DNA of 64,000 nucleotides from Pseudomonas benzenivorans. GTDB taxonomy: Bacteria > Pseudomonadota > Gammaproteobacteria > Pseudomonadales > Pseudomonadaceae. Shown here one piece after another: positions 50,261 through 51,738 of this stretch; positions within the stretch are counted from its first letter, which is position 1, and every line of letters begins with the position of its first letter. The stretch lies in contig NZ_FNCT01000017.1 in NCBI RefSeq assembly GCF_900100495.1, forward strand, positions 1-64,000, read 5' to 3'. Under the pieces are notes generated by a model, which was not told the origin of the DNA, did not search any database, and worked only from the letters and a program-made list of their open reading frames with translations. The translations under genes were made by a program, and so were the position numbers.

Positions 50261-50315
50261 GGAGCAAATCGCGTCTGGCAATACATCACGTGATCGGGAC
50301 ACAGGCTTTAGAAAC

Positions 50316-50590
50316 CATGCGTGTTAACGAAATAGGAGGCAGTCGAGCTGCGGGCACTGGGCGGATCAGAGGCGTGCCCGAGTTGTCCTGCTCGATGGCG
50401 TAGAGCAGACCGTTCACGCCCTTGCCGGCCGGGCCACAGGCCAGGTAGCCGGGCTAGTCGGTCAGGGCGTCGAGGTCGCGGGATTCGCTGACCGGTTCGA
50501 TGGCCAAGCGCTAGGGGTTGTCGAGGGCTTCGCGGCCGTCGAAGCCCGGCGCCTGCAGGTCGTTGTCGATGCCCGACAGGGCAGGGTGAC
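50316..50590 (-). pseudogene. Decayed C-terminal gene fragment with two in-frame TAG codons
   Basis: On the minus strand one frame reads GIDNDLQAPGFDGREALDNP-stop-RLAIEPVSESRDLDALTD-stop-PGYLACGPAGKGVNGLLYAIEQDNSG, then loses protein character. Both interruptions are TAG. The residues on either side of each stop look like continuous protein, suggesting recent decay of a secreted esterase/phytase-like or methylamine-utilisation-like protein; the family is a guess. No start or upstream half is present. Confidence 0.5.
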
Positions 50591-50646
50591 AGGGGCCCGA
50601 ATCGAGGCAGGACGGGCTCGCCCAACGGCCAGCCCGCCCTGCTTGG

Positions 50647-50943
50647 TTACAGCTGCAAACAGGTTTTCCGCGCCTGGTGATTGCCGCCGTAGGGCGAGCA
50701 CAGGCGCTGGTGCACCCGGCTGAGGAAACCGATCTCGAAGGCCCGCCGCTGCGCCCCAGGGGGCAGTGCGTCACGCTCGAGAATCAGGTTGGCCCAGAGC
50801 CAGCCGGTGTTGTCGTTGCTCAGCCAGGTTTGAGCGCTGGCCACGCCCTTGTCGAAGGCCTGATGACAGTTCACCGGCCACTTGATCACCGCGCCGCGAT
50901 GGCCGTCGTGGGTCGGCAGGTAGCTGGTGCTGGGCTTATTCAT
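50647..50943 (-). CDS. Small QslA-like protein
   Basis: 98 residues, ATG 50943, overlapping the preceding gene's stop by 8 bp (ATGAATAA). Core GAVIKWPVNCHQAFDKGVASAQTWLSNDNTGWLWANLILERDALPPGAQRRAFEIGFLSRVHQRLC resembles the QslA LasR-antiactivator domain in its FDKG..A..WL, GWLW..L and RRAFEIGFLSR.QQR-type motifs. The assignment is from memory and tentative. Transcribed last in a minus-strand unit downstream of a structured RNA leader. Confidence 0.55.
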   Translation of the reverse strand: MNKPSTSYLPTHDGHRGAVIKWPVNCHQAFDKGVASAQTWLSNDNTGWLWANLILERDALPPGAQRRAFEIGFLSRVHQRLCSPYGGNHQARKTCLQL

Positions 50944-51211
50944 CGGCAGCCCTCCCGGCGGATTGCGCCAGCGAACTGCGGTACAGCACCACCACGTCGT
51001 TGAGCATCTCGCGGGCGCCCTGACATAGCTCGTGCAAGTCCTTTGCGGTGGAGGTGTTCGCCTCCGAGCGAGCCAGAATCGAGAACAACTTGTGTAACAT
51101 CGCCACCCGCAACTCGGCCGCCGCCTGGAAGTGGCAGACAGGGCCACCGAGGCAGTCGAGCGGTTCGAAGCGTTTCGGGAAGGGGATAACAGCGGGGTTG
51201 GATCTAGTCAT
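50936..51211 (-). CDS. Small helical protein of unknown function
   Basis: 91 residues from ATG 51211 (MTRSNPAVIPFPKRFEPLDCLGGPVCHFQAAAELRVAMLHKLFSILARSEANTSTAKDLHELCQGAREMLNDVVVLYRSS). Its ATG overlaps the stop of a 28-codon leader ORF (ATGACTAG) and its end overlaps the QslA-like gene. Predicted all-alpha. Loosely similar in size and layout to DUF3077-type small Pseudomonas proteins; I do not claim membership. Confidence 0.5.
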   Translation of the reverse strand: MTRSNPAVIPFPKRFEPLDCLGGPVCHFQAAAELRVAMLHKLFSILARSEANTSTAKDLHELCQGAREMLNDVVVLYRSSLAQSAGRAADE

Positions 51212-51290
51212 GGCGCACCTCCAGGCTGGAGATAAACGACAAGACGAACTGCCCAAGGTGGAGCCCTTGGGTAAAAGGTGGATAGCGCAT
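51204..51290 (-). CDS. 28-codon leader ORF
   Basis: ATG 51290 follows AAGGA closely; reads MRYPPFTQGLHLGQFVLSFI and ends in HD before TAG at 51204-51206. The stop overlaps the next gene's start by 8 bp. This leader-then-gene overlap downstream of a C4-like RNA recalls icd/ant of phage P1, where translation of the leader is needed for the second frame. Short, so confidence is limited. Confidence 0.45.
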   Translation of the reverse strand: MRYPPFTQGLHLGQFVLSFISSLEVRHD

Positions 51291-51299
51291 TTTCCTTAT

Positions 51300-51322
51300 G
51301 CTCCTCGAACTATTTAAGGAGC
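51300..51322 (-). promoter_or_regulatory. Hairpin masking a ribosome-binding-like AGGAG
   Basis: On the minus strand GCTCCT - TAAATAGTTCG - AGGAGC forms a 6-bp stem whose 3' arm contains AGGAG, 13 bases before the leader ATG. Candidate site for translational control or antisense pairing. Confidence 0.5.
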
Positions 51323-51349
51323 CGCCAACCTCTCGTTTCGACTCGGTTG

Positions 51350-51428
51350 GGTGGCGGACCGTACGGGGGTCGAAATACCGGCGTCCGAGGGAACCGGCCA
51401 GGCCGAAGCCTGCCCCGCACGGCCCACC
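51350..51428 (-). ncRNA. C4-antisense-RNA-like structured RNA
   Basis: Minus-strand RNA begins GGTGGGCCGTGCGGGG and ends CCCCGTACGGTCCGCCACC, which pair as GGTGG/CCACC, CCGT/ACGG and CGGGG/CCCCG. Inside are two hairpins, CAGGC-TTCG-GCCTG and CCGG-(N12)-CCGG, giving a three-way junction. This architecture and its wording resemble C4 antisense RNAs (phage P1/P7 and many Pseudomonas loci) as I remember them. It lies directly upstream of the hairpin and leader ORF on the same strand, which fits C4 biology. Confidence 0.5.
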
Positions 51429-51450
51429 ATAGAAATGCGGTAGCCGGGCA

Positions 51451-51482
51451 CAAAAAAAGCGCCGGCTACTCAGCTATGGCGC
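51451..51482 (-). terminator. Intrinsic terminator upstream of the C4-like RNA
   Basis: Minus strand: AGCGCC - 14-base loop - GGCGCT followed by TTTTTTT. It could end transcription from the tetR gene, or be an early stop of the leader transcript. Confidence 0.5.
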
Positions 51483-51738
51483 TGTCGCGCCTCAGACAAA
51501 ACACGGGTTTCGACTCCCGGCCACGGGATTGACCGTGACCGGCGAACTCTAGCCCGGCGAGGGGCGATGGGCAAGCCCGAAGGGAGGCAGCAATCGGTAA
51601 CGTCGAATTGAGCGGGCCGTAAATTGCTGGGTTCGGCCTATCCTGATGGGCAGGAAGCGGCCAGAAGCGGTCATCGAGTGACTACAAAAGCAGAGGCGAT
51701 TCAGCATAGGCCGGGGATGTCTACCGGAGCGGGGGTAG
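51483..51738. other. Spacer between tetR end and structured locus
   Basis: No protein-like frame. Contains short inverted repeats (ccggccacgggattgaccgtgaccgg at 51518-51543) and marks the point where base composition starts to fall on the right. Confidence 0.4.

Follow-up and report, generated by a model that had tools for sequence, protein, structure and literature searches.

The locus considered here lies in Pseudomonas benzenivorans (contig NZ_FNCT01000017.1; the whole stretch of 64,000 nucleotides (nt) analysed is called the window) and raises a simple question, i.e., what is an RNA of the C4 type doing in front of a gene for a QslA-like protein? Phages P1 and P7 have C4 as their immunity RNA, and its occurrences in Proteobacteria have already been listed (PMC2864571). 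An original prediction, made from the sequence alone, had seen in this place a terminator, a C4-like RNA, a hairpin with the motif AGGAG, a 28-codon leader open reading frame (ORF) and two overlapping small genes, the second of them QslA-like. We found all of these as described, in a compact single unit on the minus strand in which a promoter, two segments named a1/b1, the terminator, C4, two segments named a2/b2, the leader, a gene that we call orfA and the qslA-like gene follow each other from 51574 down to 50647. The extent proposed at first (50647-51490) was right for this core and too short at its upstream end, since a1/b1 (51514-51490) and the promoter-like site (51574-51546) lie beyond it. 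Our reading is that a C4-type antisense RNA switch very probably controls a three-cistron operon formed by the leader, orfA and the qslA-like gene.

The C4 RNA and its pairing segments

The Rfam covariance model of C4 (RF01695) covers the RNA of the window over its full length (model positions 1-87) at 51347-51434, with 82.6 bits (E value 1.1e-14) against a gathering cut-off of 45, a significant match at the place where the C4-like RNA had been predicted (near 51350-51428). Judged by this match the RNA is a member of the C4 family in an unusual setting. RNAs of this family are processed, diffusible and about 77 nt long. Two single-stranded segments of the C4 fold, loop b (core CCTCGGAC, 51383-51390) and junction segment a (core TTTCGAC, 51369-51375), are complementary to targets inside their own operon, on both sides of C4. 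Downstream, a2 (GTCGAAA, 51336-51342) is the complement of junction a, and b2 (GTTCGAGG, 51303-51310), which pairs with loop b, overlaps the Shine-Dalgarno sequence AGGAG of the leader (51305-51301). Upstream, a1 (GTCGAAA, 51508-51514) complements junction a once more and b1 (TGTCTGAGG, 51490-51498) is the complement of loop b when G-U pairs are included. This upstream half had been missed in the original prediction, as had the covariation of the targets, the expansion of C4 over the genus and the link to the qslA gene of Pseudomonas aeruginosa, all presented below.

The clearest evidence that these complementarities matter comes from their covariation. We used 160 loci (152 distinct) that had been picked by their C4 or QslA match, not by their targets, with the C4 coordinates set by the covariance model. 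Over the distinct loci, each C4 paired better with its own targets than with those of other loci, with mean cognate and non-cognate scores of 21.6 and 13.3 at b2, 17.2 and 11.6 at a2, 19.0 and 13.0 at b1, and 17.1 and 12.5 at a1; at none of these sites did any of 5000 permutations equal the cognate mean. The 60 distinct QslA loci gave the same picture (22.3 v 15.8 at b2, 17.2 v 12.2 at a2, 20.6 v 15.9 at b1 and 17.1 v 13.6 at a1). By the sum of the four sites the cognate target was the top partner in 111 of the 152 loci, and in 34 of the 60 QslA loci; it is not always the sole best one because codes recur among loci. With a slightly different rule of distinctness, a2 matched C4 exactly over 7 nt in 146/153 loci and the same 7-mer was repeated within the 150 nt upstream of C4 in 140/153. 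The codes are diverse, with 31 versions of a and 116 combinations of a and b. At non-QslA loci (95 of 96, one having no start that could be found) the end of b2 lay 6-9 nt from the chosen start codon in 82/95, the whole range being 2-24 nt and the automatic choice of the start being doubtful at a few loci (very short ORFs, and L085). Such a spacing is as expected if pairing at b2 blocks a Shine-Dalgarno sequence. Antisense pairing of C4 to the leader is thus well supported by sequence covariation.

The genome of P. benzenivorans has four C4 matches and four QslA matches, three of which coincide as complete units (on contigs C36, i.e., the window, C37 and C21). The three units carry different codes, and each C4 is matched at all four of its own sites; among them, no C4 matches the a2 or b2 of another unit. 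Their coding parts are 91-98% identical and their a/b elements only 29-88% (in this comparison the interval taken for a2 was one base off the a2 given above). Shared DNA extends approximately from the promoter as far as the stop codon of qslA; the next 150 bp show little similarity, and beyond the unit there are just short scattered matches (14 kb compared). Because of these three recurrences and the locus-specific matching of C4 to its targets, the unit stands beyond chance. Here C4 is a multicopy element, with codes that vary between copies whose coding parts are similar. The fourth QslA copy (L012/L008, contig C20, near 56957) keeps the end of orfA and qslA and has lost C4, the leader and most of orfA. 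The fourth C4 (L004, L011; contig C24, 267481-267570) is followed by a Bro-N antirepressor-like gene, which is cargo of the classical type; this C4 passed our cross-match thresholds against the zone downstream of C4 in the window, yet the match lies outside a2 and b2, so that the thresholds admit some chance matches.

We also looked for selection for independent codes inside a genome and saw no sign of it in the rates of cross-matching. Full cross-matching was not detectably rarer within genomes than between them, either for QslA units (8.1% of 74 ordered pairs within, 6.8% of 3832 between) or for non-QslA C4 (0/552 within, 0.6% of 1170 between), and therefore we claim only code diversity.

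The remaining parts of the unit complete this picture. A sigma70-like promoter sequence, TTGCCC-N17-TAGAGT, lies at 51546-51574; a loose version of it (TTGNNN-N16-18-TANNNT, counted without a shuffled control) was present in the 150 nt upstream of C4 in 144 of the 160 loci. Close to the transcript start predicted from it, a 5' hairpin of the leader RNA folds at 51519-51540, inside a match to the a1/b1 model (51500-51552). An antiterminator-like hairpin, GGCGC-GACA-GCGCC (51478-51491), whose arm includes the last two bases of b1, and an intrinsic terminator, AGCGCC...GGCGCT followed by a T run (51452-51483), are mutually exclusive; in the terminator stem 51483-51478 pairs with 51463-51458, and the T run is at 51458-51452. 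Downstream of C4 a predicted hairpin (51300-51322) holds AGGAG in its 3' arm and exposes part of b2 in its loop. Then come the leader ORF (MRYPPFTQGLHLG...EVRHD, 28 codons and stop, 51204-51290), within it a predicted hairpin that covers the ribosome-binding site of orfA (51218-51231), orfA (91 amino acids, no family assigned, 50936-51211) and the qslA-like gene (98 amino acids, 50647-50943). The sequences ATGACTAG (leader and orfA) and ATGAATAA (orfA and the qslA-like gene) are their overlaps, of 8 nt each. Below the qslA-like stop, a stretch of some 300 bp (50300-50640) resembles, by eye, a decayed gene interrupted by in-frame stop codons.

When 50600-51700 was scanned with permissive settings, the Rfam a1/b1 model (RF03163) reached 45.9 bits (E value 3.7e-10), just under its cut-off of 46.7, which the two sister copies in the same genome exceed (49.6 and 53.9 bits). 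Likewise, the isrK model (RF01394) matched 51452-51539 with 40.8 bits (E value 3.8e-07), below its cut-off of 50. Two sampled loci, L088 and L093, have isrK matches above the cut-off (64.3 and 62.9 bits) immediately 5' of C4. The matches at L088 and L093 are supporting evidence for an architecture that isrK and C4 loci appear to share.

A proposed mechanism with an upstream termination step

From this arrangement we infer the following mechanism. One promoter would give an RNA with two possible fates. It would either end at the terminator that follows a1/b1, as a short RNA similar to IsrK, or continue through C4 and the genes, and from this longer transcript C4 would then be freed. Loop b and junction a of C4 would pair with b2 and a2, masking the Shine-Dalgarno sequence and leaving the leader untranslated; orfA and qslA would stay off as well, being coupled to the leader by their overlapping stop and start codons and by the hairpin on the ribosome site of orfA. 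By pairing with b1, C4 would take two bases of the antiterminator-like arm and favour the terminator, which could act as a second, transcriptional lock that damps the operon together with C4. The short RNA with a1/b1, in turn, could titrate C4 and open the operon. What the sequence itself shows is the fold of C4, the complementarity of the four segments, their covariation and the overlaps of the genes; use of the promoter, processing, repression, coupling, attenuation, titration and the roles of the proteins are deduced from these.

The termination step was examined by folding 53 loci with a strict antiterminator/terminator pattern and a b1 that could be scored. The median probability of the terminator stem was 0.149 in the free RNA, 0.986 when a1/b1 were held unpaired and 0.077 with a control block. 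With a1/b1 unpaired, 32 of the 53 loci crossed one half upward and the rise exceeded 0.05 in 49; b1 extends 2 nt into the antiterminator arm in 51/53. We consider the upstream termination step to be moderately supported.

Cargos of C4 and the qslA gene of P. aeruginosa

C4 is widespread in the genus, with matches in 367 of 398 genomes (ten candidates scored per genome). A deeper search of 36 genomes, our own and relatives of it, found up to 42 copies per genome and matches in 22 of 24 genomes of the genus, compared to only 2 of 12 outside, with one C4 each. We scanned 69 first-cargo proteins, selected from the 95 found by excluding short and redundant ones, and recovered DUF6124 in 35, DUF3077 in 14 and Bro-N in 4 (one protein may match several). 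In two genomes, taking as associated any gene with a C4 on the same strand not more than 450 nt upstream, the link held in both directions: C4 preceded 27/29 and 26/32 of the DUF6124 matches (two of the 32 being below the Pfam cut-off) and 2/2 and 5/6 of those to DUF3077, and 29/36 and 31/42 of the C4 copies preceded a gene of one of these families. Tandem C4 also occur; at L014 another sequence with a C4-like pattern lies about 1 kb upstream, and at L138 the Rfam model matches again some 200 nt upstream of the first C4.

QslA (Pfam PF18226) was matched in 89/398 genomes of the genus, part of whose loci we examined, and the association with C4 depends on the group. In the close group (at least 59 bits) C4 lies upstream in 50 of 52 untruncated loci, made up of all 27 untruncated among 29 fetched (L064 and L067 are at contig edges), 19 of the 20 additional copies that these genomes contain (L146 has no C4), 3 of 4 in our own genome, and L100, which has C4. 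The middle group (44.7-52.2 bits) has C4 in just 1/29 (L124) and the low group (30.5-42.8 bits) in 10/10; the seven low-group proteins inspected are long, with QslA at the C-terminus. The C4-QslA link is therefore strong in the close and low groups and nearly absent in the middle one. In the long proteins QslA makes up the C-terminal half (probability 98.6; 4ng2 as best match in the PDB, E value 0.0077) and the N-terminal half resembles orfA weakly (probability 7, E value 0.005); because of that weak kinship a fusion of orfA and QslA is offered as a suggestion from sequence comparison. 

In agreement with the original prediction, the cargo of the unit matched no antirepressor family, neither with orfA nor with the QslA-like protein. 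The QslA-like protein matches PF18226 with 107.7 bits (cut-off 25) and has 4ng2 as the sole solved relative found (E value 5e-15). Neither orfA nor the leader (26 of its 28 residues) had a match in Pfam, NCBIfam or PHROGs at E values up to 1. AlphaFold models were modest (predicted local distance difference test, pLDDT, 65.8 and 74.5); that of orfA is a predicted helical hairpin, whose best PDB match, with an E value of 0.22, we do not interpret. We also compared orfA with DUF3077 and DUF6124; the hhalign probabilities of 0.4 and 0.3 do not support a kinship.

The characterised QslA has a switch of this kind in front of its gene too. The sole plasmid-collection match was an 847-kb P. aeruginosa record, where qslA lies between aprX and a PAS-domain gene. 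In this one record, immediately 5' of qslA, there are a1b1 (66.0 bits) and C4 (64.8 bits), and loop b of this C4 has its match in GAAACGGAGT, at the ribosome site of qslA, and junction a has its own in TTGACAG. The two QslA proteins share 41% identity over 77% of the query (36% in the alignment). DNA of the P. aeruginosa qslA locus was matched partially in 27 of the 398 genomes of the genus and over its full length in none. At three loci (L224-L226, in G133, G381 and G393) DNA 77-80% identical to the P. aeruginosa a1b1-C4 region ends before qslA, a sequence pattern that looks as if switch and cargo had been swapped.

Published data on qslA are of several kinds. Its expression is given as constant between growth phases, in a paper that cites an earlier one (PMC5767178); one review describes the protein as high in strain PAO1 and minimal in PA14 (PMC9607943), and another words it as expressed in the former and absent in the latter (PMC13043044), and the gene is reported from every strain in the Pseudomonas Genome Database (PMC6068238). 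Constant expression together with a protein difference would fit post-transcriptional control, without proving it. Since binding to the promoter region of qslA in vitro is described for at least six transcription factors, one of which alters qslA transcription (PMC8041468), the gene is under transcriptional control too. Among the titles and abstract beginnings listed by our searches of the open-licence PMC literature we found none linking C4 to qslA, DUF6124 or DUF3077, and no paper on PA1244 (qslA) together with a small RNA.

Alternative explanations and known systems

Several points weigh against the proposed control of the operon by C4. The covariation statistics ignore kinship among loci, though codes shared by relatives raise the non-cognate scores. 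In the folding analysis the control block also lifted the terminator probability by more than 0.05 in 19/53 loci, and in the window this probability is already 0.71 in the free RNA and 0.98 with a1/b1 unpaired, so that attenuation would be slight at this locus, where the terminator mostly forms unaided. The strict terminator/antiterminator pattern is found in 54 of the 160 loci (25/64 of the QslA loci), and six consecutive T occur within the 75 nt preceding C4 in 74/160. IsrK is an activator in Salmonella, and the effect of the a1/b1 RNA could have either sign. In P. aeruginosa qslA directly follows C4, without leader ORF or orfA in between.

Other readings of the locus have to be set against these. 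C4 might act only in cis, as a folded part of its own mRNA and not as a free RNA; the layout puts C4, a2/b2 and the genes on one transcript, and the IsrK work shows strong cis structures (PMC4825925). The hairpins of C4 itself persist in the predicted cis fold, and we take this reading to be unlikely, at about one chance in a handful. A selfish or addiction module, with a harmful cargo, C4 as RNA antidote and diverse codes that keep the copies independent, would explain the multicopy state, the diversity of codes and the small cargo. In P1, Icd is a harmful cargo of this sort, as is AntQ beside IsrK. The IsrK paper describes growth arrest through the isrK locus (PMC4825925). Against the addiction reading, PADLOC models gave no match to the three proteins of the unit at E values up to 0.1, cross-matching shows no detectable deficit inside genomes, and the P. 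aeruginosa protein is a characterised anti-activator (PMC13043044); altogether we find the addiction module rather improbable.

The original prediction had also suggested that the small proteins modulate quorum sensing, and membership in the QslA family, the identity of 41% and the similar switch at P. aeruginosa qslA would agree with a protein that blocks a LasR-type receptor at a level set by C4. A LasR anti-activator binds the receptor and blocks its dimerisation. In the genome of P. benzenivorans (99.97% complete, 44 contigs) there is no match to the LuxR-type receptor domain Autoind_bind (PF03472), the positive control of this search being found in E. coli; a search for acyl-homoserine lactone synthases was also negative, but its positive control was likewise silent and hence it is uninformative. 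Among 364 genomes Autoind_bind was matched in 7 of the 28 that have close QslA (marginally in three, E values 2.6e-5 to 8.4e-4) and in 291 of the 336 others (Fisher p 6e-12), a contrast that is not independent evidence because the 28 are probably related species and ancestry confounds it. A quorum-sensing function in this host was rejected as unlikely for lack of a receptor match, a LasR-type target is unlikely as the general role of the close group, and as an account of the whole unit we rate the quorum-sensing module as very unlikely. We give still less credence to a decaying remnant of phage immunity, i.e., a prophage-borne C4 with small genes that no longer works. C4 is known from P1 and P7, weak DNA similarity to the C4/a1b1 region is present in 4 phage records, the C20 copy has lost its 5' part and C4, and the DNA downstream of the window unit resembles a degraded gene. 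Against this, loop and target codes are matched at three divergent loci of one genome, C4 precedes 50/52 untruncated close QslA loci and the QslA-like protein had no tblastn match in 50,697 phage records. The origin proposed at first, a domesticated phage-type switch, is plausible, in line with that missing match of the cargo in phages. Unit DNA was also matched by 1444 plasmid records, the ten listed covering 8-9% of the unit, inside the C4 part; the matching records are mostly from Escherichia and Salmonella and predicted conjugative.

Returning to control of the operon by C4, a wider reading can be put forward tentatively, as a possibility that we would not bet on. The genus may hold a set of C4 switches (up to 42 per genome), with two-part codes at a1/b1, C4 and a2/b2, that gate small anti-regulators. 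QslA would be the sole characterised cargo, with C4 setting its level, and hence the quorum threshold, post-transcriptionally in P. aeruginosa, and the families most frequent as cargo in our sample, DUF6124 and DUF3077, would be anti-regulators not yet recognised as such. The association with C4 is in any case a handle on these two families without assigned function. With a switch of this type at qslA in the P. aeruginosa record, a possible further level of control over a known brake on quorum sensing can be tested directly.

Among known systems, the C4 of phages P1 and P7 is close in layout: a three-way-junction RNA with two pairing segments and targets on both sides and, as had been predicted, a1/b1, C4 and a2/b2 in a row, with b2 on the Shine-Dalgarno sequence of a short leader ORF to which the following gene is coupled. 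Unlike in P1/P7, the cargo is orfA and a QslA-family gene instead of icd/ant, and three differently coded copies share one genome. The isrK-orf45-anrP locus of the Salmonella prophage Gifsy-1, as described in PMC4825925, also has a promoter, a short terminated RNA, a read-through mRNA and a coupled leader ORF; it differs in that the isrK score of the window is under the Rfam cut-off and anrP is a predicted anti-repressor-like cargo. The same text likens that locus to seqA - CI RNA - seqC of phage P4, and by its description our unit would resemble P4 as well, with targets up- and downstream of a processed RNA that causes early termination. Finally, P. aeruginosa QslA (PA1244) belongs to the same protein family and its gene is preceded, in the one record, by a1b1 and C4; unlike it, the window unit has a leader ORF and orfA after C4, and the P. 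aeruginosa host has LasR.
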